From the NCBI GenBank assembly GCA_000720995.1, contig JOEL01000014.1, positions 62,001 through 126,000 of the forward strand: a stretch of 64,000 nt of DNA. The letters are read 5' to 3'. Source of the stretch: Streptomyces celluloflavus (GTDB taxonomy: Bacteria; Actinomycetota; Actinomycetes; Streptomycetales; Streptomycetaceae). Under the pieces are notes generated by a model that saw only the letters and a program-made list of their open reading frames with translations, had not been told where the DNA came from and ran no database searches. The position numbers were made by a program, and so were the translations under genes. Shown here piece after piece: positions 16,476-35,579 of the stretch (position 1 is its first letter; every line of letters begins with the position of its first letter).

Positions 16476-16497
16476 GCCCCCCGGCACGGCCATCTGC

Positions 16498-16535: not shown

Positions 16536-16758
16536 ACGCAGGGCCCGGTTACCCGGGGTTCCGGTGACGCGGGGGCTGCGGTGCCGGGGCGGCGTCCAGG
16601 ACAAGCCCGGCGGCCCGCACGCGCAGGATGGCGGCGAGGCCCTGCCCGGTCAGGGCGCCGGCCAGTCGCGGACCCAGGCCGGCGCCGATGGACATGCTGC
16701 ACGTGCCGAGGGCGACGGCCGCGCCGCGCGTGCGGGGCCGCCCGGCTGTCGTACGGGC

Positions 16759-16863: not shown

Positions 16864-16920
16864 CCCAGCGCGCCCTATGGATCCGCCCGGTAAATCCGCC
16901 CGACCGCCGTCCGGAACCCC

Positions 16921-19633: not shown

Positions 19634-20004
19634 CGGGCAGGGGCGGCGCCCCGCGGAACAAGACCCGCGCGCCGCCCCGTCGCCATCTCAGGGCCCCGGT
19701 ACGGGCTTACCGCCACCGCAAGGACTCCCCTCCGGCGGGACCGTCGACAGCCCACCCGTAGCCCCCGTACACCCCACCACCGGGCGAACCGCAGCCCCCG
19801 CCACCCCCATTCCCGGATGAACCGGACACCCGCCGAACCGTCTCGGCAACGTCCATCCCCCCGATGGGAAAGTCCATTGCCCCGCCGCGGCCACGGGGTG
19901 CAGCCTTCTTCCGCACTTCCACTCGCTCCACACAGCTCTCCAGAGATCACTGCGCACCCAGCACAGCTGTCCCTGAACCTCGCTGTACCGAGGAGGACCG
20001 AAGG
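19634..20004. other. Intergenic region with terminator
   Basis: GGGGCGGCGC (19640-19649) and GCGCCGCCCC (19669-19678) form a 10-bp stem after the DUF6126 stop. The rest leads into the GH84 gene. I looked for a DasR-type ACTGGTCTAGACCACT-like site, expected for aminosugar genes, and saw none. Confidence 0.5.
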
Positions 20005-22671
20005 ATGCACCGTACGCGTACCGCGGCGGCCACCGCGTTCGCCCTGGCCCTGGCCGCGATCCCCCTGGCGGGGCCGCCGGCCGCCGCCGCGACCGCGGGC
20101 CCCGCCCGCGCCCCGGACAGACCGGCGGCCGCCACCCCGCTCTCCCCCACCCCCCGGTCCGTCCAGGCCCGGTCCGACCGGGTCACCGTCACTCCGTCCG
20201 TCACCGTCGTCGCGGACCCCAAGGCCGACGCGCCCGCCCTGGCGCTCGTCGAGAAGTCCCTCAAGGCGGCGGGCGCCGAGCGGATCGTCCGGTCCGCGCG
20301 GGCCGCCGCCGGCCGGCAGCTGACCGTCTACGTGGACGGCTCGGGCGCGGCCCGGGAGCTGAAGCGGCTGGGCGCGCGCGGCACCGACGGACTGCCCGCG
20401 GAGGGCTACGCGCTGGCCGTCGGCGATGGCCGGATCGCGCTGGCCGGCAAGGACGCCACCGGCACGTACTACGCCGCCCAGTCGCTGCGGCAACTGCTGC
20501 CGCACCGCGACCGGCCCGGTGCCCGTATCCAGGGCACCGCCGTACGGGACTGGCCCGCCACCCCGCTGCGCGGCGTCATCGAGGGCTTCTACGGCACCCC
20601 CTGGTCGCACCAGGCCCGCCTGGACCAGCTCGACTTCTACGGCGAGCACAAGATGAACATCTACGTCTACTCGCCCAAGGACGATGCGTATCTGCGGGCG
20701 AAGTGGCGCGACGCCTACCCCGCGGACCGGCTCGCCCAGTTGAAGGAGCTGGTGGACCGGGCGCGGGCCCGCCATGTGGAGTTCACCTACGCCCTCTCCC
20801 CCGGCCTGTCCGTCTGCTACAGCTCCGATGCGGACGTCGCCGCGCTGACGGCGAAGTTCCAGACGCTGTGGGACATCGGCGTCCGGACCTTCGCGGTGCC
20901 GCTGGACGACATCAGCTACACGAACTGGAACTGCACCGCGGACAAGGACCGGTTCGGGACCGGCGGCGGGGCGGCCGGTACCGCACAGGCGCACCTGCTC
21001 AACCGCGTCAACCAGGAGTTCATCGCCAAGCACCCGGGCGCCGAGCCGCTCCAGACCGTGCCGACCGAGTACTACGACGTGCAGCCATCGCCGTACAAGC
21101 AGGCGCTGTCAACGCAGCTGGACAAGAACGTGCTGGTGGAGTGGACGGGTGTGGGTGTGGTCGCGCCGACGATGTCCGTCGCCGAGGCGCAGCGGGCCCG
21201 GGAGGTCTTCGGGCATCCGATCCTCACCTGGGACAACTACCCGGTCAACGACTACGCGACCGACCGGCTGCTGCTCGGCCCGTTCAACGGGCGGGAGAAG
21301 GGGCTGCCCGGACAACTGGCGGGGATCACCGCGAACCCGATGATCCAGCCCGCCGCGTCCAAGATCGCGCTGCACACGGTCGCCGACTACGCCTGGAACG
21401 ACCAGGCTTACGACGCGCGCGCCTCCTGGGGCGCGGCGATCGACGAACTGGCCGGCGGCGACGCCCGCACCGCGCGGGCGCTCCGGGCCTTCGCGGACGC
21501 CAACTACTACTCGGTCCTCAACCCCCGGCAGTCGCCTGAACTGGCCGCCGCCGTCGACGCGTTCGGCAAGGACGGCGACGCGCGGCGGCTGGACGCGGCG
21601 CTGCGCACCGTCCAGGACGCGCCGGCGGTGCTGCGCGACCGGCTCACCGACCGGGGCTTCGTCCAGGACAGCGAGCCCTGGCTGGACGCGACGCACGCCT
21701 GGGGCACCGCGGCGCGTACGGCGCTGAAGCTGATCGAGGCGACCCGGGCGGGCGACGACGCGAAGGCGTGGCAGCTGCGCCAGCGCATACCCGAGTTGGT
21801 GCGGACCGCCAGGTCCTTCGTCTATGTCGATCTGAACGGCAAGAAGGTCCCGGTGCGGGTCGCCGACGGAGTGCTGGACACCTTCATCGAGGGCGCGCTC
21901 GCGGCGCATGACGCGGCGCTCGGGGTGACCGGCCGCCCCACGGCCTCGACCGATCTCGCCGCCTACCAGGACAACACCGTCTCCCGGATGACCGACGGCG
22001 ACGACGCCAGCTACTTCTGGAGCGGCGCCGCCCCGAAGGCCGGTTCCTATGTCGCGCTGGATCTGCACACCGAGCGTCCGCTGGGCCGGATCACCCTCGC
22101 GATGGGCAAGAGCGGCAGCCCGGACGACTATCTCCACCACGGCGTTCTCGAATACTCCGCGGACGCCACGCACTGGCGGCAACTGGCCGCCTTCGACGAC
22201 ACGGCGGAGATCACGGTCGATCCGCCGGCCGACGCCGGAGCCCGGTATGTGCGGGCCCGCGCCACGCAGTCCCAGGACAACTGGCTGGCGGTACGGGAGT
22301 TCACGGTCGCCGGGTCGGACACGGTGACCGGCGGCCCGCCCGCGGCTGCGGGCAGCGCGCTCGGGGCGGCGGCGGACGGCGACCCGACGGCCGCCTACCG
22401 CGCGGCGCGGGCGGCGCAGTCCGGCGAGTCACTGGAGTTCACCCCGGCCACACCCCGCACCGCGCGGTCCGTGGTGGTACTCCGCCCGCAGGGCGCGCCG
22501 CCGAAAGCCGCCCGGGTCCAGGTCCGTACGGCCGGCACCTGGCGCACGCTCGGCACCCTGTCCGGCGCCTACACCCGGCTCGCGACGGGCGGCGGCACCA
22601 TCGAGGGCGTACGGCTGGTCTGGCGCACGGGGACGGCGGCCCCCGAGGTCAACGAGGTGATCCTGCACTGA
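20005..22671 (+). CDS. Secreted GH84-type beta-N-acetylglucosaminidase/hyaluronidase
   Basis: 888 residues. Signal peptide at about 1-30; GH20b-like N-terminal domain to about 175; GH84 catalytic barrel from about 180 (PLRGVIEGFYGTPWSH) to about 470; helical region; and an F5/8-type C carbohydrate-binding domain at about 640-770, plus a further beta-rich tail. The substrate-assisted catalytic aspartate pair is D301-D302 in VPLDDIS. It removes terminal beta-linked GlcNAc from glycoconjugates or hyaluronan-like polymers outside the cell. GAGGAGGACCGAAGG precedes the ATG. It is transcribed alone between two hairpins. Confidence 0.9.
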   Translation: MHRTRTAAATAFALALAAIPLAGPPAAAATAGPARAPDRPAAATPLSPTPRSVQARSDRVTVTPSVTVVADPKADAPALALVEKSLKAAGAERIVRSARAAAGRQLTVYVDGSGAARELKRLGARGTDGLPAEGYALAVGDGRIALAGKDATGTYYAAQSLRQLLPHRDRPGARIQGTAVRDWPATPLRGVIEGFYGTPWSHQARLDQLDFYGEHKMNIYVYSPKDDAYLRAKWRDAYPADRLAQLKELVDRARARHVEFTYALSPGLSVCYSSDADVAALTAKFQTLWDIGVRTFAVPLDDISYTNWNCTADKDRFGTGGGAAGTAQAHLLNRVNQEFIAKHPGAEPLQTVPTEYYDVQPSPYKQALSTQLDKNVLVEWTGVGVVAPTMSVAEAQRAREVFGHPILTWDNYPVNDYATDRLLLGPFNGREKGLPGQLAGITANPMIQPAASKIALHTVADYAWNDQAYDARASWGAAIDELAGGDARTARALRAFADANYYSVLNPRQSPELAAAVDAFGKDGDARRLDAALRTVQDAPAVLRDRLTDRGFVQDSEPWLDATHAWGTAARTALKLIEATRAGDDAKAWQLRQRIPELVRTARSFVYVDLNGKKVPVRVADGVLDTFIEGALAAHDAALGVTGRPTASTDLAAYQDNTVSRMTDGDDASYFWSGAAPKAGSYVALDLHTERPLGRITLAMGKSGSPDDYLHHGVLEYSADATHWRQLAAFDDTAEITVDPPADAGARYVRARATQSQDNWLAVREFTVAGSDTVTGGPPAAAGSALGAAADGDPTAAYRAARAAQSGESLEFTPATPRTARSVVVLRPQGAPPKAARVQVRTAGTWRTLGTLSGAYTRLATGGGTIEGVRLVWRTGTAAPEVNEVILH

Positions 22672-22699: not shown

Positions 22700-22884
22700 G
22701 CGTGGGCGGACACCGGCGGGGCCCGGCACTCACCGGCACCGGACCTCGCCCCGCCCGCCCCCTGAAGCGGTCGGAGCGCGGACCGTCCCTCCCCCGGAGC
22801 AACACAGGCCACCATGGGCCGGCTGTCCCTCGCATCAACGGTGGACCGGTCCCCGACCACGCATACGCCCTCAACCGCCCGTAC

Positions 22885-23068
22885 TCACGGCGCCCACTCC
22901 TCGGCGAGCAGGCCGAGAACGACCAGGTCGACGAAGGCCCCGTACACCCAGGCGGAACGCCGCAGAGTGCCCTCGACGGAAAATCCGGCCCTCGTCGCAG
23001 CCGTGATCATCGCGGTGTTGTCGGCGAGGGTCTCGATCTGCAGCCGGTGCAGGCCGCGTACGGAGGCC
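22885..23068 (-). pseudogene. C-terminal fragment of a RimJ/RimL-type GNAT acetyltransferase
   Basis: The minus-strand frame ending at 22885 carries GLHRLQIETLADNTAMI, then AATRAGFSVEGTLRRSAWVYG and a LLAEEW end, the last ~60 residues of a ribosomal-protein-type acetyltransferase. Homology stops at about 23068, where phage terminase sequence begins on the other strand. The N-terminal part of the same family lies at 31630-31875, also on the minus strand and in the correct order. About 40 middle residues, including the acetyl-CoA loop, are found in neither piece. Confidence 0.75.
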
Positions 23069-24023
23069 GTGCTCGACGCGATCGTCGACCACAAACGCAT
23101 TGCCGCTCCTGCCGGGTTCGGCGTCGGCAAGACCCATCTCGCCGTGCGGGCCGCCGTCTGGTGCACCAACGTCCATCCGGTCGGCACCGCCTTGTGCATC
23201 ACCACAGCGACGAGGTTTCGCCAGGTGCAGCGGCAGCTCTGGCCGCACATCCGCAAGGTGGTGCCGCGGGCCGGCCTGCCGGGCTGTTGCCGGCACGGTC
23301 CAGTACAAGATGCCCGACGCGTACGGCCAGGACGTTGTGGTCACGTACGGCTTCTCAGCGCCGGCCAACGACGAGGTGGCGATGCAGGGCATCCATATAC
23401 CTCACCTGCCGCTCATCGTGGACGAGGCGGGCGGTATCAACCCGTGATCGGCGCGGCACCAACAACCTGCTCACGGGCGGGCACGCAGTGATGCTCGCGA
23501 TCGGCAGCCCTGCGATGGACGATCCCGTGTCCTGGTTCGAGGAGTTGTGCATCGAGAGCGAAGACCCGAGCGAGACGACGACCGTCACCATCCCCTCCCC
23601 CGACTCCCCAGCAATCGCCAAGGAGCGGACGCCGTACTGCGCGGACTGCACGGACTGCCCCGACGGCATCGCCCGGCACTCCCTCGCCGACCACATGCCG
23701 GACCAGGACTGGGTCGACCGCACCATCCGGTCGTACGGCGAAGACCACCTGTACGTGATCGCCAAGGTGTTCGCTCGGTTTCCTCGGGGCGGCGGCGAGG
23801 CGCCGAGTACACCGGGCGCGTGCCGGACTACGCGGAGCCGGACGCAGAGCCGCTGCGCTGGGAGCGCCTCAGCACCGTGTGCGGTTGCTCGGAGGAGGAC
23901 CGGGCACCGCACGACATCACCCCGGAGACGGGCGACCCGCGCCTGTTCCCGACGAAGCCGCCGTTCCTGCCCGGCTGGCGCCGTCCGGCGAGCGACATCG
24001 GCCTGCAGCCGCCCGCCTGGTGA
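23069..24023 (+). pseudogene. Frameshifted phage terminase large subunit
   Basis: Terminase similarity runs through three frames. The Walker A-like APAGFGVGKTHLA and the TTATRFRQVQRQLWPHIRKV segment are in the first. After a shift near 23285 come VVVTYGFSAPANDEVAMQGI and the Walker B-like LPLIVDEAGGI. After another near 23447 come NNLLTGGHAVMLAIGSPAMD and DRTIRSYGEDHLYVIAKVFARF. At least two frameshifts and loss of both ends mean no functional motor. No other recognisable phage gene survives next to it. Confidence 0.65.
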
Positions 24024-24130
24024 GTGCGGCAAGGGAACCCAGGACCGTCACCGGGCCCGGCAGCGCTACCCTCCCGCCCGCGTTGGGAGCACTTCTCCTC
24101 TCCACCTGGTCCCACGGCTGCAGCCGGAGC

Positions 24131-24160
24131 GGTGCATCTCCGCCCGGGCGGAGGTGAACC
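24131..24160. repeat. 30-bp near-perfect palindrome
   Basis: The core CTCCGCCCGGGCGGAG (24138-24153) is a perfect 16-bp palindrome, and outward the match continues with two mismatches over 30 bp. It sits between the terminase remnant and the DHDPS remnant. It could be a terminator, a protein-binding site or an old recombination site; the sequence does not decide. Confidence 0.5.
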
Positions 24161-24204
24161 GCCGAGGAGGGAGGGTACTGGCTGCGGACCCCGGTGCTCT
24201 CCAC

Positions 24205-24584
24205 GCAGGCGGTAGTGCTCCACGACCGCCGCCCGCTCCGCCCGGTAGGCGTTGGGCGGCGGCAGCAGCACCGAGGTGGCGCCGGCCTTGGCTGCCTGCT
24301 TGGCCCAGCGGCGGGCCTCGAAGGCACCGTACGCGGCCACGCCCGGCATCACGCCGAAGCCGTCGGGGGCGGTGGACGGCGGTCTCGACGACGCGGGCGC
24401 GCTCCTCGGCGGTCAGCGTCTGGTACTCGCCCAGCGAGCCGTTGGGCGCCACGCCGTCACAGCCGCCGGCGGCCAGGAAGCGGACATGCTCGGCGAAGGC
24501 GTCGTAGTCGACCGACAGATCGTCGTGGAACGGCAGGGCCGTGGCGACGTGGACTCCGTGTCAGGGCCTCGCGGAGTTGGTCAT
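24205..24584 (-). pseudogene. Dihydrodipicolinate synthase-family remnant
   Basis: From an ATG at 24584 with GGAGC upstream, the minus strand reads seven residues and then an in-frame TGA (24561-24563). It continues in the same frame with ALPFHDDLSVDYDAFAEHV, GGCDGVAPNGSLGEY and LTAEERARVVETA. A frameshift near 24370 leads to GVMPGVAAYGAFEARRWAKQ and LPPPNAYRAERAAVVEHYR, after which similarity ends. The catalytic-lysine half is lost. The family includes hydroxyproline-pathway deaminases. It is divergent from the LysR gene, its probable former regulator. Confidence 0.75.
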
Positions 24585-24781
24585 GCTGCAGCTCCTTGAC
24601 TGGTGTGGGAAAGAAGGTAGTAGTGCAATGTCACACGCCATAGACCTGGAACCGGGCTGATGGCCCGATGCCGCGGATCGGGTAACGGCCGTGCTGCCGG
24701 CCCGCGTCGAACAGTGCCTCGTCCACCGGGACCATCGGACGTAAAGTTGGCACACTCCTGAGAGACCTGGAACGGGTGCTG

Positions 24782-25741
24782 ATGGAAATCGAACTGCGAC
24801 ACCTGCGGATTCTGTGCACGATCGCCGACACGCTGAGCCTCGGCCGGACGGCCGCCATCATGGGGTGCTCGCAGCCCGCCGTCAGCAGTCAACTGAAGCG
24901 CATCGAACGGCTTATGGGCGAGGACCTCTTCGTCCGGGGCAGTGCGGGGGTGACACCGACGCGCTTCGGGGTCGAGGTGGTGGTGCAGGCCCGCGAGGTG
25001 GTGGCGCTGGCGAACGCGATCGGGCACCGGTCCACCGCGAGCCGCCGCGGAGCTGATCGGGTGCTGCGGGTAGCCGCGACGAATACGCCCATCCTGCCGG
25101 GGCTCCTGCAGCGGGCGCGCACCGTCCTGCCGGCGCTGACCGCGCAGGTGAGCAGCGTGTACTCCTCGGCCGAGATCATCGGGCTGCTCGAGGACGACAA
25201 GCTGGACGTCGCCGTCGCAGTCGACTACCCCGGACGGGAGTTGGGGCATTCGGAAGCCGTGGCGCGCCGCGGCATCGTCACCGAGCCCAGCTTCGTGGCG
25301 CTGCCCGCCGACCACCCGGCGAGCGGGCAACTGGACGTGCCGCTGCTCGATCTGGCCGGGGACGCATGGTTCCTGACACCCGACGACGGTGCGGGCTGGC
25401 CCGGTGTCTGCTACGACGCCTTCCAGGCGGCCGGCTTCCGACCCGCCACCGTGCACGAGTACCTCGGTGACCGGGACCAGTTGCAGCGGATGATCGCCGA
25501 CGGGCTGGGGATCGCCGTCGTCCAGGCGACGTGCAAGCCGAACCCGGGTGTGGTCGTCAAGCCGCTGGCCGGCACGCCGCTGTGGTGCCGCTATGTGCTG
25601 GTGTGGCACAGGGAGCGGGTGTCCGATGAGGTCACGGAGGCGCTCTTCGGCGCGGCCCTGGCCGCCTACGAGGAACTCATCGCCCGGGCACCGCACTTTC
25701 GGGCGTGGGCAGCCCGCCACTACCCGGCCCCGCGGAGGTAG
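24782..25741 (+). CDS. LysR-family transcriptional regulator
   Basis: 319 residues from ATG 24782 (a GTG at 24776 adds two). The helix-turn-helix is at about 15-60: LSLGRTAAIMGCSQPAVSSQL, quoted in part as AAIMGCSQPAVSSQL, then KRIERLMGEDLFVR. The C-terminal ~220 residues form the substrate-binding fold. The gene is intact, although the adjacent divergent DHDPS-family gene is broken, so the regulator may have outlived its target. It is separated from the convergent collagenase by a strong bidirectional terminator. Confidence 0.88.
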   Translation: MEIELRHLRILCTIADTLSLGRTAAIMGCSQPAVSSQLKRIERLMGEDLFVRGSAGVTPTRFGVEVVVQAREVVALANAIGHRSTASRRGADRVLRVAATNTPILPGLLQRARTVLPALTAQVSSVYSSAEIIGLLEDDKLDVAVAVDYPGRELGHSEAVARRGIVTEPSFVALPADHPASGQLDVPLLDLAGDAWFLTPDDGAGWPGVCYDAFQAAGFRPATVHEYLGDRDQLQRMIADGLGIAVVQATCKPNPGVVVKPLAGTPLWCRYVLVWHRERVSDEVTEALFGAALAAYEELIARAPHFRAWAARHYPAPRR

Positions 25742-25780
25742 GCGTACGGGGCTTGTACGACACCGGCACAGCCCGAGGCC

Positions 25781-25812
25781 GTGGCCCGGCCGACCGGAGT
25801 CGGCCGGGCCAC
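25781..25812. terminator. Bidirectional terminator between LysR and collagenase
   Basis: Perfect 14-bp stem GTGGCCCGGCCGAC / GTCGGCCGGGCCAC with the 4-nt loop CGGA, between two convergent genes. Confidence 0.75.
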
Positions 25813-25850
25813 GGTCCCGGGTCATGCAACCACTGCCGTTCAGGAGGGGA

Positions 25851-28166
25851 TCAGAACGACGTGGTGACGGTGACCCCGCTGAAGTCGGTCACCGCGTACA
25901 GGCTGATGTACCGGTAGCCCGCCTCGGTGTTGTTGACGGTGATGCTCTCAGCGTTGCCGGAGTTGGTGGACTTCTGGGTGAAGGCGGACGGGCCGGCCCA
26001 TGTCGTCGGGTCGTAGTAGAGGTCAGCATTGCCGCTGCCGCCGCTGGTAGTGACCTTCAGAGTGGTGTTGCCGGCCGGCAGCCACACCCACAGGTAGTCG
26101 GTGTCACCGGCGACCCGGGACTGGTCCGACCGGAAGCAGTTCTTCCCCATCGCCTGCGTGTTGGTGTCGGCGCAGGCCGTGCGGTTGCCGCTGCCACCGC
26201 CCAGGGTGTCGAGCCAGGCGTCGAAGTCGGCGTCGTAGCTGGTGCCGATGTTGTTGTAGACGGCGTAGGCACCCTGGTAGTCCCCGGTCCGCATCTTGGC
26301 CAGCATGGCCTGGATCTGGTCCGGGTGTTTCTCGGTCATGTACCGGACGGCCAGGTATCCCCACGGGTAGGTGCGGGTCTCGTCGTCGATGACGTAGGTG
26401 TTCTGGAAGAGCTGGCTGAGCTTGTAGGTGTGTTTGCCCGCCTCGGTCAGCGCGCCGTCGTCGGTGAGGTTGCGGTAGGAGTAGGAGACGTACTCCGCTT
26501 GGCCCTCTATCCACCAGACGTCCGGGACGGTGATCTGGGTGCCGAAGTCGCCCTTCATGTCGTAGATGGACTGCTGGACGTGCGCGAACTCATGGTTGAG
26601 GTTCCACGCGTTGGCCGGGAAGCCGTTGTCGGTCGGCCACTGGTAGAGGATGGAGTAGGCGATGTTGTCGGGGTCGGTCGGCGTGCCGGTCAGCGTCTCG
26701 CCGCCGTTGTTGGTGTCATTGCCGAAGATCGCCCACGAGTAGGTCGTGTAGTCGGTCCTGCTCCCGAAGATGACCATCTTCAGGTTGAAGTACTCACCGG
26801 GGATCGGCGTGCTGGTCTTGACCTGATTCTGGTAGAACGCGACCTCATTCGACAGGCTCGTGCAGACGTCGGACTGCTCCTTCGCTGTCAGCGCCTGCGC
26901 CATGACGGTGAAGTTGCTGCAGGCGTTGTTGATCGGCAGCGCGGCCGCGGTGAGTTGCTTCGTCAGGTCGCAGACGCCGTAGTAGGAGCACTGGTCCGGG
27001 TCCCCGACGCTAGCCCGGTAGGCGACGTGCACCCACAGGTTGTCCGTGGCACCGGTGATGGACGAGCCGTCCAGCAGACCCTTGATGAGCGGGCGGATCT
27101 TGCTCTGCAGGGCCGGTATCTGGATGAGGTTGGCCAGGTCGTTGCCTGCGTTCGAGTCGAGGACGTCGTTGACCCCGCCGAGCAGGTCGCGGTGGCCGAG
27201 GGTGAAGTTGTAGAGCGTGTCGGCGATACCGGGTTTCGCGGTGATCGCGGTGACGAAGTCCGACAGCCACGGGCCGCGCCACAGCGGGGTGTAGATCGCG
27301 TTCAGCGCCCGGTCCATCTCCGGGACGGCGTCCCACGAACTGCTGGTGTAGGCGTTGAGGTAGCGGCCGTAGACGTCCAGGTAGTCGGCCTGCACCTGCG
27401 CGCTGTCGGTGAGGACGAACGCCTGCTCCAGCACACCGCCGTTGCCCGCGCTGACGTCATTCGCGTGACTGCTGGCGAACAGCGTGTTGAACCCGTTCTC
27501 GATGGCGCTGCGGAGCGAGGGGTCGTACGTGCCGACGTCCTGGGGGTTGCCGTACTGCACGTAGTAACCGGCACGCATGAAGTACATCAGCTCGTACAGG
27601 CCGCCGGAGTCGTCACCGGTGTAGGAGCCTGCCGCTCCGGCGACGCCGTTCGCCACCGCGAGCATCTGGGACTGATTGAACACAGCGTGCGCGTCCGGAC
27701 CCGTCAGGCTGAACAGCGGGTTGATGCAGGAGCTCCAGTCCACCGTCTTGATGTACGACACCAGGTCGCTGCCGGACCGGCCCGAGAAGTCCGACGTGGT
27801 GCACGACGTGACGGCGGCAGGCCGGGCGGCACCGGCCGCGTTGAGTGGCGCGTGTGCTGACAGGTGCGGCTTGGACGGCTTGGCCGAACCCAGGGCAGCC
27901 GGCGCCCCGCGAAGTTTCGCGGGCAACGGCTTGGCGCTGGTGGCGGCGGCTTGGGACTGAGCGGTCTCGGGTCCGGTGGGCGTGACCTTCCCGTGCTGTT
28001 TGGCAGCCTGCACGGCTGCGGAGGGTACCGACACGGCCGGTGGTGAGGCATGCCTCGTGTTGCTGGTTGCCGCGGCCGCCTGAGTGTTCGTCAGGCCGGC
28101 GACGACGAGCCCTCCGGCCGCCAGACCTGCGGCCAGAACTCTGGGCAGGATTGATCGACAGTGCAT
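25851..28166 (-). CDS. Secreted M9-family (collagenase-type) metallopeptidase
   Basis: 771 residues. Signal peptide at about 1-32; low-complexity Ala/Pro propeptide-like region to about 120; M9 N-terminal helical domain (FSGRSGSDLVSYIKTVDWSSC onward, quoted in part as LVSYIKTVDWSSC); gluzincin catalytic domain with HEFAH in LNHEFAHVQQ and the third zinc ligand Glu in WWIEGQAEYVSY about 30 residues later. The C-terminal ~110 residues are a pre-peptidase C-terminal (PPC-like) domain, common in secreted peptidases. It degrades collagen or gelatin-like substrates outside the cell. ATG 28166 has GGAG about 5 nt upstream. It appears intact within a region of broken genes. Confidence 0.9.
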   Translation of the reverse strand: MHCRSILPRVLAAGLAAGGLVVAGLTNTQAAAATSNTRHASPPAVSVPSAAVQAAKQHGKVTPTGPETAQSQAAATSAKPLPAKLRGAPAALGSAKPSKPHLSAHAPLNAAGAARPAAVTSCTTSDFSGRSGSDLVSYIKTVDWSSCINPLFSLTGPDAHAVFNQSQMLAVANGVAGAAGSYTGDDSGGLYELMYFMRAGYYVQYGNPQDVGTYDPSLRSAIENGFNTLFASSHANDVSAGNGGVLEQAFVLTDSAQVQADYLDVYGRYLNAYTSSSWDAVPEMDRALNAIYTPLWRGPWLSDFVTAITAKPGIADTLYNFTLGHRDLLGGVNDVLDSNAGNDLANLIQIPALQSKIRPLIKGLLDGSSITGATDNLWVHVAYRASVGDPDQCSYYGVCDLTKQLTAAALPINNACSNFTVMAQALTAKEQSDVCTSLSNEVAFYQNQVKTSTPIPGEYFNLKMVIFGSRTDYTTYSWAIFGNDTNNGGETLTGTPTDPDNIAYSILYQWPTDNGFPANAWNLNHEFAHVQQSIYDMKGDFGTQITVPDVWWIEGQAEYVSYSYRNLTDDGALTEAGKHTYKLSQLFQNTYVIDDETRTYPWGYLAVRYMTEKHPDQIQAMLAKMRTGDYQGAYAVYNNIGTSYDADFDAWLDTLGGGSGNRTACADTNTQAMGKNCFRSDQSRVAGDTDYLWVWLPAGNTTLKVTTSGGSGNADLYYDPTTWAGPSAFTQKSTNSGNAESITVNNTEAGYRYISLYAVTDFSGVTVTTSF

Positions 28167-28332
28167 CGCATCTCCAGTGGGGGGGAGCGAAGGGGAAGCC
28201 GCCCGAGGAAGCGAGCAGCGGTGTGTAACATTGCACTGGGTGAAGTCGTGAGCAATACTCCGGGACCCAGCACTGTTTCCAGTTGCCCCATAACACCGGC
28301 GCACAGGGTGTCAACGCCCGCCTGGAAGTGAG

Positions 28333-28440
28333 ATGCGGACGACCAGGGCACAGCCGATCGAGACGATCGACTGGCACACCGGCGGCGAACCGTTCCGGAT
28401 CGTCGTGGACGGCCCGGCCAAGGTGACGGGTGACGGGTGA
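28333..28440 (+). pseudogene. N-terminal fragment of proline racemase/4-hydroxyproline epimerase
   Basis: ATG 28333 opens 35 residues containing ETIDWHTGGEPFRIVVDGP, the conserved start of the proline racemase family. TGA at 28438-28440 then arises inside an array of GGTGACG repeats. No catalytic-cysteine region follows in any frame, so only the first strand of the enzyme is left. Confidence 0.7.
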
Positions 28441-28456
28441 CGGGTGACGGGTGACG
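28422..28456. repeat. Five tandem GGTGACG heptanucleotides
   Basis: Five exact copies from 28422 to 28456 at the point where proline racemase homology ends. Seven-base steps shift the reading frame, so slippage here alone could have broken the gene. Confidence 0.85.
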
Positions 28457-28609
28457 TGCCCGCCTACATCCACGCGCACAGCGTCGAACACCGCGCACAC
28501 GGTCGGCACATGCCGGTGCACCGTCGTTCCGCGCGACGCGTTCCTGCCCGGATTCGTGCTGAGATGACCGAACTCCTCCACGCGGAGCTGGTCTTCGCCT
28601 TGGGGCCGG

Positions 28610-28750
28610 TAGCCGCCGTCCGGGCCGTCCGCCGACCTGCTCACCGCGAAGGCCGCCCTGCGAGGCGACCGTCCGACGGTCGTCAGGACCACCGGGGTGG
28701 GATGTGGGAGGACCTGGTGGTCGCCGTCGCGGCGTACCAGGCAGGGAGAG
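28610..28750 (+). pseudogene. Possible C-terminal fragment of ornithine cyclodeaminase-family enzyme
   Basis: The stretch SADLLTAKAALRGDRPTVV with TTGVG, then after a one-base shift MWEDLVVAVAAYQAG, resembles the end of ornithine cyclodeaminase/mu-crystallin proteins, which finish with a (V/I)G..DL..A...Y pattern. The evidence is short and needs a frameshift. No gene was recognised in the remaining bases of 28167-28847. Confidence 0.4.
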
Positions 28751-28847
28751 GCGCACCAGCAGGGAGCACAGGCGGAGCGCCCCCTGTTTCCGTACCATGT
28801 GAAATAGTACTGTCGCCGCACAGGGTTCCCGACGGACGGAGCACACG

Positions 28848-29440
28848 GTGGTGCGAGACGACATGCAGCAGCGCGAGGGCGCGAGCCACGACCGCGCGGT
28901 GCCGCCAACGCTGGCGGAATGCTTCACGCAAGGGTGGGCCGAGGAGACTCCGGCGGTGCCGGTACTGCCCGGAGCGGCGTACGCGGCCAAACGTCGCGCG
29001 CTGCTGTCCGCGCGCTTCCCCGGGGAGCGAATCGTGATCTCGGCCGGCGGCCTGAAGGTCCGGAGCAACGACTTCGACTACCCCTTCCGGCCGCACTCCG
29101 CGTTCCTCCACCTCACCGCGGACGAGGGCGGCGCCGCCGCCCCGGACAGCGTCCTCGTCCTGGAGCCGACGGGCACCGGCCACGACGCCACGGTGTTCGT
29201 CCGGCCGCGCTCCCCGCGCGACGGCGGGCCGAACGGCACCGAGTTCTACCGCGACCGCCGCTACGGCGAGTTCTGGACCGGCCGGCGCCGCACCCTGGCG
29301 GAGACCTCCGACGCCCTGGGCCTTACAGCTCTCCCCCGCGATGGCCTCGCACGCGCCCTCGCCTCGGACGTCCCGACCCGGGTGGTGCGCGGCCAGGACC
29401 CGGTGGTCGACGCGGCGGCGCCGCCGGCCGCCGGGGCCGA
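28848..29440 (+). pseudogene. N-terminal fragment of Xaa-Pro aminopeptidase
   Basis: From GTG 28848 about 195 residues match the aminopeptidase P N-terminal domain: LPGAAYAAKRRALLSARFPG, ISAGGLKVRSNDFDYPFRP, DSVLVLEPTGTGHDATVFV and the FWTGRRR block. The metal-binding catalytic half (~290 residues) is missing. At about 29440 the similarity passes to a truncated thymidylate kinase in another frame. The intact enzyme removes residues before proline from peptide N-termini, which fits the proline theme of the surrounding fragments. Confidence 0.75.
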
Positions 29441-29442
29441 GG

Positions 29443-29950
29443 CATCGCCGTACACCGAACCGTGGAGCCCTCCACCAGCGAGCTCGGCACCTTCACCCGC
29501 CAGAACGCCAACACCATCCATGGGCACGCTCTGGCCTGCCTGGTCGCGGCGGACCGGTACGCGCACATCGAACACGAGATCAAGCCGTCGCTCCACGCCG
29601 GCGACACGGTCATCTGTGATCGCTACCTCGCCTCGACGCTGGTCTTGCAGCGGCTCGACGGCGTGCCGCTGGAGTTCCTGCTCGACCTGAACGCGGACAT
29701 CCTGATGCCCGACCTGGCGGTGATCCTCACCGCGTCGCCCGGCCTCATCGCCCACCGGATAGCCGAGCGCGGAATCCGCCACCGATTCCACCTCGACCCC
29801 ACCATGCCCAGCCGCGAGGTCGACCTCTACGCCGAGACCGCCCTCACCCTCACCGCCAAGAACGTGAAGGTACTGGTGCTCGACAGCAGCAATGCCACGC
29901 CGTCGGAGCTCGCGGCCGAAATCGCCGACACGCTCCCCGACCCTCGATAG
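29443..29950 (+). pseudogene. Thymidylate kinase lacking its P-loop
   Basis: The frame ending at 29950 has VEPSTSELGTF, LACLVAADRYAHIEHEIKP, GDTVICDRYLASTLVLQRLD and a long dTMP kinase C-terminus. The first ~25 residues of the family, including the ATP-binding GxxGxGKT loop, are absent and replaced by aminopeptidase sequence. Without the P-loop it should not phosphorylate dTMP. It lies 39 bp before the NUDIX gene in the same direction; dTMP kinase, NUDIX and MazG may once have been a nucleotide-metabolism set. Confidence 0.75.
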
Positions 29951-29989
29951 CGTCGGCAACCTCACCGAAGCCGACAACCCCCAGGGATC

Positions 29990-30430
29990 ATGAACCCGGA
30001 ACCCGCACAACCCGTCATCGACACACACGTCATCCTCCGCGACGGGGACAAGATTCTCTTCTCACAGCGTGGCGGCCCGTACGGCCACGGGCGGTGGCAC
30101 ATGCCCTCGGGCAAGCTCGACAAAGGCGAGCCCCTGACCGTCGGCGCCGCCCGCGAACTGTACGAGGAAACCGGCATCACGGCCGACCCGGCTCACCTGC
30201 GCCTCGTCCAGGTCGTACACCACCGGCAAGACGCGGAAATGGAACGAATCGGCTTCTTCTTCGAGGCCACCGAATGGCAAGGACACCCGGTCAACAAGGA
30301 ACCCGAGAAGTGCCGCGCCCTCGGATGGTTCACCGTGCACGAACTGCCCGACGACATCATCGAATACCCCGCGGCCGGCTTGAACGGCTACCTCCGGACC
30401 ACGGGTCCTCTCACTGAGCACGCCTGGTAG
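29990..30430 (+). CDS. NUDIX hydrolase
   Basis: 146 residues. A complete NUDIX box G-x5-E-x7-REUxEExGU spans about residues 41-63: GKLDKGEP then GAARELYEETGI. The protein begins VIDTHVILRDGDKILFSQR and keeps the WHMPSGKL lead-in typical of MutT-like enzymes. It hydrolyses a nucleoside diphosphate-linked or damaged nucleotide substrate, identity unknown. No strong ribosome site precedes ATG 29990, so translation may depend on the upstream frame. Confidence 0.88.
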   Translation: MNPEPAQPVIDTHVILRDGDKILFSQRGGPYGHGRWHMPSGKLDKGEPLTVGAARELYEETGITADPAHLRLVQVVHHRQDAEMERIGFFFEATEWQGHPVNKEPEKCRALGWFTVHELPDDIIEYPAAGLNGYLRTTGPLTEHAW

Positions 30431-30449
30431 CCGCGGCACGAGGACCACG

Positions 30450-30480
30450 TCCGGGGCGTGGCTCAATCGCCCGCCCCGGA
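30450..30480 (+). terminator. Terminator of the NUDIX gene
   Basis: TCCGGGGCG (30450-30458) pairs with CGCCCCGGA (30472-30480) around a 13-nt loop, 20 bp after the stop. Confidence 0.6.
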
Positions 30481-30833
30481 CTTCTTCATCGGATGAGCCG
30501 AGCCCCCGGGTGGACCCCGGCGGAGAAGGCCAGATCTTCCTTGAGACAGAGCGCATCGCCGCCGAGCGCATGACGATCGACGTCACGCACCAGCTGGAGA
30601 ACATCCGTCTCGCCGGCCGAATCCTCGCTATGCGTGACGCCCGCATTATCGAGCAGGTGGATACAACGAACTGGCCCATGCGGGCGGCTTGTTCGCTGAG
30701 ATCGTGGCCCCCGTCAAGGACCGGTAGGCAGCCGGTGTCCTCACGCAGCCAAACGACCGGCCACTCCCCGATGACGCTCACGTTCCCCCTGAGCGCTTGA
30801 ACCCCGTCCGTACGAAACAGAATCGAGACACAC
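30481..30833 (+). other. Unrecognised stretch with a possible gene remnant
   Basis: A frame from 30510 reads GQIFLETERIAAERMTIDV and HQLENIRLAGRILAMRDARI, with codon use unlike a random frame, but it degenerates after about 50 residues. No family was recognised. It may be a fragment of another lost gene. Confidence 0.3.
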
Positions 30834-31169
30834 GTGACTGATACCTGGCAGACGATTGCCCGCCTTGCCGGCCGCCTGGAGGAACACTCCACGCTCCCTC
30901 GCGAACAGCGCATCCTTCTGCAACTGCTGAAGATCCAGGAGGAGGCCGGCGAGGTCGCCGAGGCGGTCATCGGAGCCATGGGGCAGAACCCTCGCAAAGG
31001 TCACTCGCACACCTGGAAGGACGTCGAGGCCGAGATCTGCGATGTCATCGTCACCGGCATGGTCGCCTTGACCCGCATGAACCCCGAGGCCGCGACCGTC
31101 TTCCAACGTCACATGGAGGGCCTCGTCGCGCGGGACCTGGACCAAGCCGAGGGCGCCGCTGCCCAGTGA
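30834..31169 (+). CDS. MazG-like nucleotide pyrophosphohydrolase
   Basis: 111 residues, one MazG/all-alpha NTP pyrophosphatase domain. The metal-binding pattern is visible: QEEAGEVAEAVIGAMG (E-E-x2-E) and, about 30 residues later, DVEAEICDVIVTG (E-x2-D). Such enzymes hydrolyse (d)NTPs to NMPs and pyrophosphate, often as a house-cleaning step. GTG 30834 has only a weak ribosome site. It lies in the same direction as the NUDIX gene and the thymidylate kinase remnant. Confidence 0.83.
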   Translation: MTDTWQTIARLAGRLEEHSTLPREQRILLQLLKIQEEAGEVAEAVIGAMGQNPRKGHSHTWKDVEAEICDVIVTGMVALTRMNPEAATVFQRHMEGLVARDLDQAEGAAAQ

Positions 31170-31629
31170 ACCGGCTCGCACAATCGGCCAAGAGTGATCA
31201 CGGTTGGGGCGGATGTAACAGATCACCGCTCCACGACGTTCCGAACCGCGAAACGGGGTTGACCTTCGTGCCAACCCCACTCACAGCCGAGGAATGGGTG
31301 ACAACTGCTACCGCTCCCCTCTCACCGGCAGCAGGACGGGCCTTCTGTCAGGAACCCCCGTTCCCGTCACGGCCCGCCTCGGCGCCACAGGCCCCGGTGG
31401 CCGACTACGCGCTCACCGGCTCGTACGGCCTGATCTTCTTCACCCGCACGATCACCTCGCCCGCAGCGGAGTCCTGAAATCCGGCGCGGATCGCGTCGAC
31501 GCTCGGGCCCTGGTCTCCCACCGAACGGCGGCGGACCGGGACGCGGTTCCCGAGGTGTGCACGCGACACCAATCGGGCGCCGTACCCATCGTGCGCGTCG
31601 TGAGTACACCGCCTGAGCCCCCCTTGCCG
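31170..31629. other. Unassigned sequence at the right end of the island
   Basis: The minus-strand frame of the GNAT N-terminal fragment stays open to 31405 with unrelated sequence ending AGEVIVRVKKIRPYEPVSA. No family was recognised for it, and nothing convincing appears on the + strand. Confidence 0.3.
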
Positions 31630-31875
31630 CGAATCATCGCCCGCGAAGTTGCCGGCCAGCTCCTGCGACGCCAGCTCCACCACCGAGGAATACGCCCGCC
31701 GGTCCGACGGCACCGGCACCGCGGCGGGAGACTCCGCCGCGTCCGGCGGGAGGGGCCGCCAGGGCTCGGAGCCGGCGCGCGACCGCGTCGCCACGTCCTC
31801 GTACAACTCGGCCTGGAAAACGGGGACATCACTGTCCCACCGAGTCCGCAGTGCGACCTTCTCGCCTCGTATCAT
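31630..31875 (-). pseudogene. N-terminal fragment of a RimJ/RimL-type GNAT acetyltransferase
   Basis: From ATG 31875 about 80 residues match the beginning of this GNAT family: MIRGEKVALRTRWDSDVP, FQAELYEDVATRSRAGS, then RAYSSVVELASQELAG, where similarity stops. The last third of the same family lies at 22885-23068 on the same strand, so the two pieces look like one gene broken by the ~8.6-kb island between them. The acetyl-CoA-binding middle is lost. Confidence 0.7.
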
Positions 31876-31989
31876 GCGCCCTTGCTATCCCACCCGGCAC
31901 AGTCGATCAGGAGACCGGGTCGGCCGGACCGCCTGCCTGTGCCCGGCCTGATGGCGAACCCTCAATCCTGGCCCCGACCGGTGCGCGGG

Positions 31990-32667
31990 TCAGCTCGCCG
32001 TCCCGTCGAGGAGGGGCTTGAGTTTGGCCACGAGGGTGCCGGCCGAGACGATACGGGGGATCTGCTCACCTTCCGGCGGCGCGAGGTTCGGGCAGGATTC
32101 GCTGTCGGACGCATCGCCCTTGAGCTTGAAGCTCTGCAACTGGCGGCCGGTGTCCGCCGTCCGGACGGTGACCTGATAGGACACGTCGACGAGGAGCCGA
32201 AGGCTCATGTTGTATCCGCCAGGTTTCGCGTACATGCACCGGCCCGTGGTCGCCGTGGAGTGGCCGGGCAACGGCGCCAGGCAGATGACGAGTTGGGCGA
32301 CGGACCCGCCTGCCTTCGCGGTCTGCGATGCCCACCGTGGCGGCAGGTGGATATAGGCCGGCGTCGCGAGGTCGGGGGTGTCCAACTGGATGACGTCCGC
32401 CGGGTGCGGCCCCGGTCCCTGGTAGTGGCCCTGAGGGTCGCTCGGCACCTTGCCCAGGCACACGTTCTGCGGAGTGGCAGCCGGTGAACTCGCCTCCGCG
32501 GACGGGGCAGGAGCCGAAACGGTACGGGCAGGAGTACTGGGCGGAGCCGTCGGCCCGGCTTGATCGCCCCCGGCGCGGCCGCATCCGGCGAGCGCCGTGA
32601 GCACAACGGCAACTCCGACTCCCGCACACATCCGCACGCCGCGCCGTCGCCTGTCCCGCTCCCGCAC
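31990..32667 (-). CDS. Hypothetical lipoprotein
   Basis: 225 residues. Basic start (RERDRRRRG), hydrophobic core and lipobox LAGC, so lipid-anchored outside the membrane. A Thr/Pro/Ala linker follows to about residue 60, then a soluble domain with four cysteines (NVCLGK, LVICLAP, GRCMYA, ESCPNL) that may pair. No family recognised. GTG 32667 has AGGGGG six bases upstream. It appears to be transcribed alone. Confidence 0.72.
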   Translation of the reverse strand: MRERDRRRRGVRMCAGVGVAVVLTALAGCGRAGGDQAGPTAPPSTPARTVSAPAPSAEASSPAATPQNVCLGKVPSDPQGHYQGPGPHPADVIQLDTPDLATPAYIHLPPRWASQTAKAGGSVAQLVICLAPLPGHSTATTGRCMYAKPGGYNMSLRLLVDVSYQVTVRTADTGRQLQSFKLKGDASDSESCPNLAPPEGEQIPRIVSAGTLVAKLKPLLDGTAS

Positions 32668-32834
32668 TCTCGCCCCCTGGCATGTCCCCGATGATTGTCG
32701 CGATCAAGTCTGCCCCACGAGGACGGCGGGTTCCAGGGCTACCGTTCGAATGCCATCCACACCTGGCAGCGGCGCATCATCGGCCACACCAGGGGCCTGC
32801 GGGCGACGGCGGACGGATCGGACCGCTTGACGAA

Positions 32835-33560
32835 TCAGGGGCGCCAGCGGTGCGAGTGGCCTTCCCTCAGCGGCCCGCCGAGCAGGTCGAGCACGTGCTC
32901 GGCGGCGGCCGCCAACGGGGCGGGGTCGGCGTGTTCGGCCACCGCTTGATGGCCGTCCAGCAGGGCCCTGCCCCGTACCGGGTCCGCGCTCAGCAGTCTG
33001 CGGGGCAGCCACTTGCCGATGCCTGTCCAGGCGTTGTGGTGCGCGGTGAGCAGGTGTGTCGCCTCGCGCAGGGTGAAGTCGGCGAGGGAGAGCTGTTCGT
33101 ACCGATCGGCCGGCGGGGTGTCGATCAGGTCGTCCATGAAGCAGGTGAGGCCGTAGCGTCCACGTTCCCATTCCGCCGGGGTGAGCGGGGGCGGGCCGGC
33201 CGCCAGCACCGCTCGGGCCCGATCGCACGTACGGGAGAGATGACCGTGGGGGTCCATCAAGGGCAGCCCCTGGTCATAGATGAACAGGACCGTGCCGCGA
33301 CGGCGGGCTCTGTCCCACGCGAAGAATTCCGGTATGTCCGCGAGGGTGTTCAGGAACAGCTCGGCCAGAAGGCCCTCGTGGCGTATCACCTCGCGACGGC
33401 TGGTGTCCGAGTCCGGCAGGAGGACGGCCACGTCGAGATCGCTCTTCGCAGTGGCCCGCCCCTGGGCGGCCGAGCCTCCCAGCAGGGCTCCCAGGGCGTG
33501 CGGGAAGAGGGTCGTGACCAAGCGCAGAGCCTGGGCGGCAGGGTTTTCCTGATCATTCAT
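32835..33560 (-). CDS. Nucleotidyltransferase-domain protein (MNT/HepT-like fusion)
   Basis: 241 residues. The minimal nucleotidyltransferase motif GGSAAQGRATAKSDLDVAVL is at about 28-47, matching GSx10DxD, with the third carboxylate probably in the TVLFIYD segment. The C-terminal half (about 135-235) is helical and resembles a HepT/DUF86-like partner fused in the same chain. Relatives AMPylate or otherwise nucleotidylate a target, or act as toxin-antitoxin modules. No separate HepT gene flanks it, and a role is not established. Confidence 0.72.
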   Translation of the reverse strand: MNDQENPAAQALRLVTTLFPHALGALLGGSAAQGRATAKSDLDVAVLLPDSDTSRREVIRHEGLLAELFLNTLADIPEFFAWDRARRRGTVLFIYDQGLPLMDPHGHLSRTCDRARAVLAAGPPPLTPAEWERGRYGLTCFMDDLIDTPPADRYEQLSLADFTLREATHLLTAHHNAWTGIGKWLPRRLLSADPVRGRALLDGHQAVAEHADPAPLAAAAEHVLDLLGGPLREGHSHRWRP

Positions 33561-33852
33561 GGCCGGTCATCGTGCCAGCCCGGGGATGCGTTCGTCCGAG
33601 TTCGGGGTCCCTACCTTGTTCCCTGGTTCAGGGAAGCCTGCCTGGCGTGGCCGATGCTCGTCACCGCCCGGGAGTTCCTGCCACCGCACCGCGTCTCCGC
33701 AGCAACGTCGCAGCAACGTCGCCGGTTCCCCGTAAAGTCAAGGCATTTCCGACCTTCGCCGTCACAGCGGATCAAAGCCGCGAACGCCCGTATCCGGCGG
33801 CCGGACGAGAAGTACGGCGGCGCCGCTCCGCGTTGCCCGGTGCCTCCGCGGG

Positions 33853-34845
33853 CTACGTCAACGGCAGAAGCGCCAGTGCCTCATTCATGTTGTGCTCGGC
33901 GATCCCTCGCATGCTCGCCCGGTCGGGGAAGTCACCGTCGAGGAGACGCAGTGGACCGGCTACCAGCGACAGACGCATCGCGAGCATGTAGAGGTCGAGC
34001 CGCCGCGGATCGAGACCGGGCCGGGCCAGTGCGGTGTACCGCTCGCCGAAGCGGAGTTGGAGGAAGACGTGCTCCCACTCGACGTCGAAGTACATCAGAT
34101 CTTCGATGTCGATCAGGACGGGGTGGCCGTCCGCGTCGACCAGGACGTGGTCGGGTCCGAGTTCTCCGTGGATCAGTCCGTATTCCGTGCGCGGGCTCAC
34201 GCGATCGGCCAGTTCCCGCAGACGGTCGCGGAACGCGGCGTCGGCTCTCGCGATCCTGTCCTCGCGCCCCGCCGCCTCATCGAGGTCCCGCAGGGCGCGG
34301 TCGAGGACCCGTCGCTCGCACGGGACCTCGGACGCGGAACCGCCCCGGTCCAGCAGGTCCACCTTGCCGTAGTGCCGGGCCCGGTGCCGGTGCATCACCT
34401 CAAGCATCCGGGCGAGGTCACCCAGAGCACCCGCGGCACGCGCAGGGTCGGTTGCGAGGAGGGCTTCGAGCGTGCCGCCGGAGACATCCTCGACCACGGC
34501 GACGTCCGCCGGATAGCGGCGCCTGCTGTCATCCGCCAGGAGTACCCGTGGAACCCGTGCCCCGACGTCGTCCAAGCACCGCTGCGCGGCCAGGAACGGG
34601 ACCAGCCCGGAGGCGGGCGCGAACGGGTCAGCCGGATCGGCCTCTCGCGCGCCCGGCCAGAAGTTCTCAGCCGCCGCCCAGCTGTAGACGATCACGCTCG
34701 ACGTGTGGGTCCCCTCAAGGCGGACCCGGTAGACCCCCTTCTTGCTTCCCCCGCGCAACCGGTCCACCGCGACAACGCGGCATCCGGCTCCCAGTGCGTC
34801 ACGCACGAGCCCCGACAGGTCCTGGATGTCCGTGAATTGCCGCAT
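33853..34845 (-). CDS. Aminoglycoside phosphotransferase-like kinase
   Basis: 330 residues with a protein-kinase-like APH fold. The nucleotide loop GGSKKGVYRVRL is at about 31-42. The catalytic loop is LIHGELGPDHVLVD, in place of the usual HGDxxxxN, and the metal site is LIDIEDLMYFDVEWEH. The Asp of HGD is replaced by Glu and the Asn by His, so catalysis may differ from antibiotic kinases. The substrate is unknown and antibiotic resistance should not be assumed. Confidence 0.78.
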   Translation of the reverse strand: MRQFTDIQDLSGLVRDALGAGCRVVAVDRLRGGSKKGVYRVRLEGTHTSSVIVYSWAAAENFWPGAREADPADPFAPASGLVPFLAAQRCLDDVGARVPRVLLADDSRRRYPADVAVVEDVSGGTLEALLATDPARAAGALGDLARMLEVMHRHRARHYGKVDLLDRGGSASEVPCERRVLDRALRDLDEAAGREDRIARADAAFRDRLRELADRVSPRTEYGLIHGELGPDHVLVDADGHPVLIDIEDLMYFDVEWEHVFLQLRFGERYTALARPGLDPRRLDLYMLAMRLSLVAGPLRLLDGDFPDRASMRGIAEHNMNEALALLPLT

Positions 34846-34898
34846 CCGCAGAACCTACTGAAGACGGCGCGCGCACATGCCATGGGATACCTCCTCCG

Positions 34899-35129
34899 CT
34901 ACGTATCATCGCCGCCCCTGCCCCCACTCTCGTCGAGCAGGCCCAGAGCCGAGCAGAGGGAGACGGAGAGGGTCATCCATACGACGAACGCCCCGCCGCC
35001 GTAGAGCACCGCGCGGGGCACGCTGCCGTCCGCTGCCCACGACAGCACACCGGCGATGACGGCGACCAGCAGGGAGAGGGTGATTGCCAGGGCGACGAGC
35101 AAGATCCGCGTCGAAAGTCCGGAGCGCAC
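34899..35129 (-). CDS. Small two-helix membrane protein
   Basis: 76 residues from GTG 35129, which has AGAAGG 9 nt upstream (ATG 35138 is too close to that site). Two hydrophobic segments: RILLVALAITLSLLVAVIAG and AVLYGGGAFVVWMTLSVSL. The C-terminus is charged and glycine-rich. No family recognised. Confidence 0.6.
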   Translation of the reverse strand: MRSGLSTRILLVALAITLSLLVAVIAGVLSWAADGSVPRAVLYGGGAFVVWMTLSVSLCSALGLLDESGGRGGDDT

Positions 35130-35170
35130 GGCCGGCATCCTTCTGTGAAGGGTGGCCGCTCCGAGACACG

Positions 35171-35211
35171 CGTCTCAGCCCGACCACCGCAAACGGTGGT
35201 TGGCTGAGACG
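35171..35211. other. Long interrupted hairpin in a gene-free stretch
   Basis: CGTCTCAGCC (35171-35180) pairs with GGCTGAGACG (35202-35211), and ACCACCG with CGGTGGT, around a CAAA loop: 17 bp in two segments. It lies 42 bp upstream of the small membrane gene. A related odd palindrome GAGACGGTCTC is at 35340-35350. The rest of 35130-35579 shows no gene. Confidence 0.5.
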
Positions 35212-35579
35212 GTGTGGTCCCGGGATGTCTCCGCACCGTGGCAGGTCCGGACACCCCCGGGGCAACGCCCTCAATCAGTCCTCGGATGGTAGGGGACTCC
35301 GGCGGATCACACCAGAAGACGGCTCGTTCGCCGTAGGCCGAGACGGTCTCAGCGGTGATCAACTGCCCTCCGCCGCCCGCCGTCTGGCCTCCGCCCTCCG
35401 ATGCACCGCACCGCACACCACGGAACCGCCGCACGGCCGAACGACGCCACCCCGACGACACGCCCCCGCGCCCCTCCCGCGAGCTGACCGACGCCCCTCC
35501 CCGCGTCCTAACCTGAGGGCCGGGCCGTTCTGCTGAGGCCCTGGCCACCCTCGCGACCGCACACGGAGGAGACGACACC

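Follow-up and report, generated by a model that had tools for sequence, protein, structure and literature searches.

In Streptomyces celluloflavus, a gene for a RimJ/RimL-type GNAT acetyltransferase lies broken into two parts, about 8.6 kb apart, within an accessory islet of about 12.8 kb. The stretch analysed, called the window below, comprises 64,000 nucleotides (positions 62001-126000 of contig C14, JOEL01000014.1) of a draft genome of 8.68 Mb in 193 contigs, and coordinates are those of the window. Judged by their alignment to intact homologues, the two parts are most likely the halves of one original GNAT gene. The explanation we favour, and consider probable, is that this gene, itself part of the acquired islet, was split by an end-joining-like capture of plasmid or phage DNA that afterwards shrank by deletion. 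The features at the centre of this explanation are as follows.

22725-35495, no strand: the whole accessory islet, with approximate ends, between a GH84 gene and a TenA/THI-4-like gene.
22885-23062, minus strand: C-terminal GNAT part, stop codon included; the inner end lies between 23062 and 23075.
31651-31875, minus strand: N-terminal GNAT part, coding for 75 residues; upstream of it the similarity extends as far as about 31918.

As the initial annotation had proposed from the letters alone, both GNAT parts lie on the minus strand in the right order; they are complementary and do not overlap. The C-terminal part has 84-89% amino acid identity to five intact orthologues, from S. bluensis, S. 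acidicola, S. scabichelini, S. spongiae and S. sp. DvalAA-14 (176 amino acids long in four of the five, 184 in S. scabichelini), and its DNA is 87.6% and 88.7% identical to two of them. The N-terminal part has 72-80% amino acid identity to the same five genes (tblastn, with reading frames picked by GC content at codon position 3). At the DNA level, the alignments to the S. bluensis and S. acidicola orthologues both end at 31651. On the C-terminal side local alignments reach 23063-23075, and because the match turns gapped past 23062 the break was set at about 23062. The middle of the gene that is missing amounts to 127 bp with the break at this position and to about 113 bp with the alignment taken to 23075; the initial annotation had guessed a loss of about 40 residues. 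The RGRGLA stretch of the orthologue, which we take to be the acetyl-CoA loop, falls within this missing middle, leaving the split gene with no acetyl-CoA-binding loop. Since the gene is cut and the loop is lost, it is expected to be dead and non-functional. Neither fragment alone gives a significant Pfam match, so the GNAT assignment rests on comparison with the intact genes; the S. bluensis orthologue matches PF13302 (GNAT acetyltransferase).

In genome searches, the N-terminal part found a match in 15 of 61 genomes, the own genome counted, where at E <= 0.001 the fragment itself is the sole match; the C-terminal part found a match in 332 of 392 genomes. Outside the own genome the best matches to the C-terminal part are in G377 (89% identity) and G391 (87%), and the genes of these two genomes are also clearly the best for the N-terminal part, with 73% and 72% identity against at most 61% elsewhere among 47 loci. 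A scan of the G377 protein against a species-genome collection (84,980 species) returned 18 loci. For the half-by-half comparison 60 homologues were used, of which 57 are distinct (L001, L018, L015, L019 and L020 were excluded because they were self matches, incomplete or redundant). The five best genes for the N-terminal half among the 57 are the five best for the C-terminal half, and the identities of the two halves across the homologues have a rank correlation of 0.54. By this comparison both halves belong to one GNAT subfamily, and the proposal of a single broken gene came through the alignment to intact homologues unharmed.

The islet is flanked on the left by the GH84 gene (19864-22671) and on the right by the TenA/THI-4-like gene (35580-36257; Pfam TENA_THI-4). 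A GH84 match at E <= 1e-50 is present in 190 of the 392 genomes, the own genome counted. The regions of 11 among the 12 best GH84-matching relatives were compared, G199 being excluded for a match at a contig start; an eleventh relative, G218, is unreadable, its contig stopping too early. In 10 of 10 readable relatives GH84 directly neighbours the orthologue of the 35580-36257 gene, with 0.1-0.8 kb between the alignments, and in the window 12.9 kb separate the two genes. The left intergenic region loses its homology at or just before 22671 in five of six aligned relatives and at about 22724 in G161; on the right side homology resumes at about 35496 in G390 and at about 35532 in the remaining aligned relatives. 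The adjacency of the flanking genes in all 10 relatives thus identifies about 22725-35495 (~12.8 kb), the GNAT parts included, as an accessory islet, which on these comparisons is wider than the interval of 22885-31875 first described.

None of the 10 readable relatives has any GNAT gene, let alone two complete ones, between GH84 and the 35580-36257 gene. The initial annotation had taken the GNAT for a resident of the chromosome between the GH84 gene and a lipoprotein gene; we reject that placement, since the GNAT lies within the ~12.8 kb absent from all 10 relatives. From its distribution the GNAT itself looks like acquired cargo, not an old chromosome resident. No GH84, lipoprotein or nucleotidyltransferase gene lies near any of the five intact orthologues in the stretches compared, where the contigs of two of the five run for just 37 and 359 bases beyond the gene, so that one side is invisible. 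Neighbour genes are common to three of the five, and in those stretches S. scabichelini and DvalAA-14 share only the GNAT. Among the matches listed in a DNA search of the 392 genomes, the GNAT, lipoprotein and nucleotidyltransferase genes never stand in one row outside the own genome.

The DNA between the two GNAT parts contains the following features.

23063-23800, plus strand: remnant of a terminase large subunit gene that lacks both ends and is spread over three frames; homology is clear across 23073-23797.
24120-24166, no strand: palindromic repeat unit, like the array units on an S. cyaneofuscatus linear plasmid.
24209-24584, minus strand: DHDPS-family gene (Pfam DHDPS), N-terminal part only, cut at 24209, with an early stop and a 2-base deletion.
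24776-25741, plus strand: LysR-family regulator gene that looks complete (Pfam HTH_1 and LysR_substrate nearly full length).
25851-28304, minus strand: M9 collagenase gene, 817 amino acids, that looks complete (Pfam Peptidase_M9_N, Peptidase_M9 and PPC, the models being covered almost entirely).
28353-28437, plus strand: 5' stub of a proline racemase family gene, seen by blastn and extended by tblastx to 28437.
28489-28738, plus strand: ornithine cyclodeaminase family gene, a start part followed by an end part, with a large internal deletion.
28819-29432, plus strand: aminopeptidase P gene, N-terminal domain only (Pfam AMP_N), cut at about 29432-29443.
29438-29950, plus strand: dTMP kinase gene lacking about the first 30 residues; the match begins inside tmk.
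29990-30430, plus strand: NUDIX hydrolase gene that looks complete (Pfam NUDIX profile positions 7-120 of 134).
30834-31169, plus strand: gene for a MazG-like protein that looks complete; a plasmid homologue is matched over residues 4-102 of 111.

The terminase, DHDPS-family, proline racemase, ornithine cyclodeaminase, aminopeptidase P and dTMP kinase genes are thus truncated or broken, as are both GNAT parts. The earlier description of nearly every gene as a fragment went too far, the LysR, M9 collagenase, NUDIX and MazG-like genes all looking complete.

The terminase remnant directly abuts the C-terminal GNAT part, as first described, and the switch from one to the other takes place within about 10-15 bp. 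Its DNA is 71% identical over 725 bases to the terminase gene of Streptomyces phage Gilgamesh (MN234216; nucleotides 272-994 of 1758). In the islet, unlike in Gilgamesh, the gene is frameshifted and reduced to roughly its central 40%, and the terminase pieces matched no PHROGs family. Similar terminase genes are found on Streptomyces plasmids, e.g., that of MBT27; the nine plasmid records listed measure 53-133 kb, and seven fall within 125-133 kb. In a DNA comparison with 50,697 phage records, positions 24700-35600 of the islet gave no Gilgamesh match. The palindromic unit that follows is present in many copies at 61-bp spacing on the S. cyaneofuscatus linear plasmid, at about 1356-6588 of the stretch compared. 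Its near-perfect 22-base palindrome (24135-24156) has a single site in the 8.7-Mb own genome with up to 2 mismatches allowed, and a looser 17-base core recurs at two further places in the window.

The segment 24209-29432 appears to be the remains of a collagen/hydroxyproline-type cluster, a pathway name that we interpret from the genes present. The DHDPS-family gene has 92.7% DNA identity to a plasmid of Streptomyces sp. SAT1 over 24209-24637; similarity to two DHDPS homologues stops at 24209, and the match to contig C13 of the own genome starts one base later. The LysR protein has a homologue with 62% amino acid identity encoded beside a collagenase gene on pSCATT. The racemase stub is 92% identical over 51 bp to C13 and to an annotated proline racemase gene on the S. 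cyaneofuscatus plasmid, on which an ornithine cyclodeaminase gene is annotated as well. The cyclodeaminase remnant matches the C13 locus collinearly, with 71% identity over 128 bp (12323-12196 of the C13 stretch 46000-65900) and 79% over 73 bp (11427-11357 of that stretch). Both stubs are collinear with C13 and with the S. cyaneofuscatus plasmid, and several hundred bases are missing at two places; collinear blastn rows were used here, and tblastx, mostly noise, served only for the end of the racemase stub. Homology of the aminopeptidase P gene ends at 29432 against an S. californicus plasmid, at 29443 against S. longwoodensis and at 29305 against S. cyaneofuscatus. On the S. californicus plasmid the collagenase and aminopeptidase P genes are divergent neighbours, just as in the islet save for the stubs between them, and in the loci compared a collagenase gene adjoining a LysR or an aminopeptidase P gene is seen in other arrangements.

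An apparently intact cluster of the same type, with open reading frames, is present elsewhere in the own genome, on contig C13 (46000-65900; positions 7809-16868 of that stretch). It contains collagenase, ornithine cyclodeaminase-like, two racemase-like, DHDPS-like and FAD oxidoreductase-like genes, named by similarity to annotated plasmids or by eye and without a family search. The C13 and S. cyaneofuscatus clusters share collagenase, proline racemase and ornithine cyclodeaminase genes with the islet; an aminopeptidase P gene is shared by the plasmid cluster and a DHDPS-like gene by the C13 cluster. In contrast to both, only the collagenase and LysR genes are whole in the islet, the others being cut or reduced to stubs, and the islet collagenase is inverted relative to the stubs.

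On the right of the insert, the tmk-NUDIX pair has 79.8% DNA identity to a plasmid of NBC_01320, and the NUDIX protein is matched by a plasmid homologue over residues 2-146 of 146. The same two genes adjoin each other on many Streptomyces plasmids and in Streptomyces phage SF3, to which the islet DNA is 72% identical over 29522-30430; the rest of the islet between 24700 and 35600 has no SF3 match. The MazG-like protein is 55% identical to one encoded next to tmk on plasmid pSITFR-21c and has no Pfam match. Its upstream spacer and the start of its gene (30530-30944) are 88% identical to a locus on contig C6 of the own genome. A prophage remnant was considered as the main identity of the insert and rejected: the phage-like parts are only the terminase piece and the dTMP kinase-NUDIX block, both of which are plasmid-borne too. 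A terminase scrap does not make a prophage, and the rest is mostly metabolic cargo.

For these remains we propose the following course. The GNAT gene would have arrived as part of the acquired islet. DNA of mobile elements (plasmids, phages or phage-plasmids) would have been joined into it by illegitimate, end-joining-like recombination, a step that would have cost the gene the 113-127 bp of its middle. The inserted DNA, now ~8.6 kb, would then have shrunk by deletions to three truncated blocks, namely the terminase piece, the decayed collagen/hydroxyproline-type cluster and the block of dTMP kinase, NUDIX and MazG-like genes. The end-joining mechanism, the order of events and the donors are what we infer from the state of the locus: homology ends abruptly at ~23062, 24209, 29432-29443 and 31651, and the insert blocks have relatives on Streptomyces plasmids or phages. 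More than 100 bp of the target were lost and there is no long homology between the partners at the GNAT/terminase joint; this loss, together with the switch into terminase sequence within so few bases, fits illegitimate joining. That the racemase and cyclodeaminase remnants are collinear with their counterparts but have lost internal stretches supports shrinkage of the insert. A Pfam scan of 20 proteins, 17 of them from the islet and with small open reading frames partly covered, gave no integrase or transposase match. Among 12 direct and 17 inverted repeats listed, none, at lengths of 18 nucleotides or above, connects the two ends of the islet or one GNAT break with the other, and the window contains no tRNA gene. 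A Ku gene is present in the host (one PF02735 match, E 1.3e-45), a property of the host and not of the locus. Of the initial idea of an integration followed by deletions, the split of one GNAT gene by ~8.6 kb and the deletion-type decay are supported, and the insertion into a resident gene is not.

A comparable outcome has been described in S. ambofaciens, where repaired breaks carry deletions and some survivors a deletion with an unrelated insert, five inserts of 30 bp to 18.8 kb being reported, and where half of the scars in the central region show microhomologies of 1-6 nucleotides (Hoff et al., 2018; PMC5869714). There the breaks were induced and the inserts came from the same genome, whereas the islet holds mobile-element-like pieces and records an old, decayed event. 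The islet also resembles the cases described in a study of indel accumulation in Streptomyces chromosomes (PMC8627663), in which one strain carries acquired genes that its relatives lack at the syntenic position; here, by comparison, the individual genes of a single islet are worked out, a broken one among them.

Several observations weigh against the proposed course. The donor sequences are too diverged for single-base calls of microhomology at the GNAT junctions, and sequence comparisons that included phage records found no origin for 31170-31650. Two of the three blocks have phage relatives, and much the same remains would be expected from a phage or phage-plasmid that integrated site-specifically and then lost its integrase by deletion. 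The S. ambofaciens inserts are own-genome DNA, and in that study foreign capture is only proposed (PMC5869714). As to the unity of the GNAT gene, the own genome contains four matches to the C-terminal part, namely the fragment and three weaker ones. Trees of the two halves speak for one gene in that they group the N-terminal half with all five orthologues at 100/98 and the C-terminal half with four of the five at 92/77. Against it, both trees are built from few columns and have unsettled bootstraps, the C-terminal tree leaves the S. scabichelini gene out of this group, though with weak support, and around the C-terminal half a well-supported set has at least 19 rows.

The strongest competing account, which we regard as rather unlikely, is that the GNAT gene was the target of a conventional mobile element (integrated phage, plasmid or phage-plasmid) with an integrase or transposase of its own, and that this enzyme disappeared afterwards along with most of the rest. 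The terminase piece is Gilgamesh-like, and in Gilgamesh the gene next to the terminase encodes a tyrosine integrase; the similarity of the dTMP kinase-NUDIX block to phage SF3, the plasmid-type cargo and the deletion decay of the insert would all be accommodated. An enzyme-driven insertion is, however, harder to reconcile with a target that lost more than 100 bp, with the lack of a joining repeat among those listed at the islet ends or GNAT breaks, with a window free of tRNA genes, and with the absence of a recombinase among the scanned proteins. Within the favoured explanation of end-joining-like capture, the ~8.6-kb insert could be a multi-fragment product, pieces of different plasmids and phages having been stitched together at one break in place of one large shrunken element. 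We hold this version unlikely.

It is quite improbable that the GNAT pieces stem from two different copies within one subfamily, each imported independently as a scrap. The patchwork nature of the islet would allow separate origins, and the poorly resolved C-terminal tree leaves room for them, but the pieces share their strand, right order and five nearest genes, are complementary without overlap, and part of the gene's own upstream sequence is kept on the outer side of the N-terminal part. An assembly artefact joining unrelated contig pieces is hardly credible: the genome is a draft of 193 contigs and several joints fall within 12.8 kb, yet the window has zero undetermined bases, the region is present as one full copy (the best other own-genome match covering 420 bases at 88%), and the broken genes carry frameshifts and internal deletions of their own, which misjoins do not make.

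Beyond the N-terminal GNAT part, the right side of the islet contains three further genes.

31990-32667, minus strand: putative lipoprotein gene adjoining the N-terminal GNAT part; a signal-like N-terminus with GCG was noted by eye.
32835-33560, minus strand: nucleotidyltransferase-domain gene (Pfam NTP_transf_2).
33853-34845, minus strand: APH-fold phosphotransferase gene (Pfam APH).

The lipoprotein gene has no Pfam match, and among the matches listed from the 392 Streptomyces genomes it gave only short DNA matches of at most 93 bp. Orthologues of the nucleotidyltransferase gene in G088, G372 and G414 lie on the same contig as GH84, 0.36-6.4 Mb away, and the phosphotransferase gene is 88.5% identical at the DNA level to a linear plasmid of NBC_01562, 1 Mb in size. 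A Tn3-transposase end on this side was considered and dismissed: in the plasmid record the DUF4158 label is attached to a small gene that shares just a few bases with the matched stretch, and in the window that place is taken by a small membrane-type open reading frame. Outside the islet, a 486-amino-acid open reading frame between the 35580 and 37824 genes (36338-37798) is matched in only one of the 10 relatives (G361), so the neighbourhood varies beyond the islet too.

Taken together, the locus records DNA that was gained and decayed in an ordinary way; the type of event is familiar, and the locus is not a new system. Its value is that of a well-resolved instance of accessory DNA in a Streptomyces chromosome in which no recombinase was found, and in which the unit of study is corrected to an islet of ~12.8 kb with the broken GNAT as cargo. 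The pattern of decay, in which members of a catabolic cluster were reduced to collinear stubs and the collagenase and its neighbouring regulator stayed complete, is laid open gene by gene. Such loci could serve to measure the natural rate at which pieces of mobile elements are captured by end joining, and, if the multi-fragment version were true, they would be natural records of recombinase-free accessory DNA building in Streptomyces.

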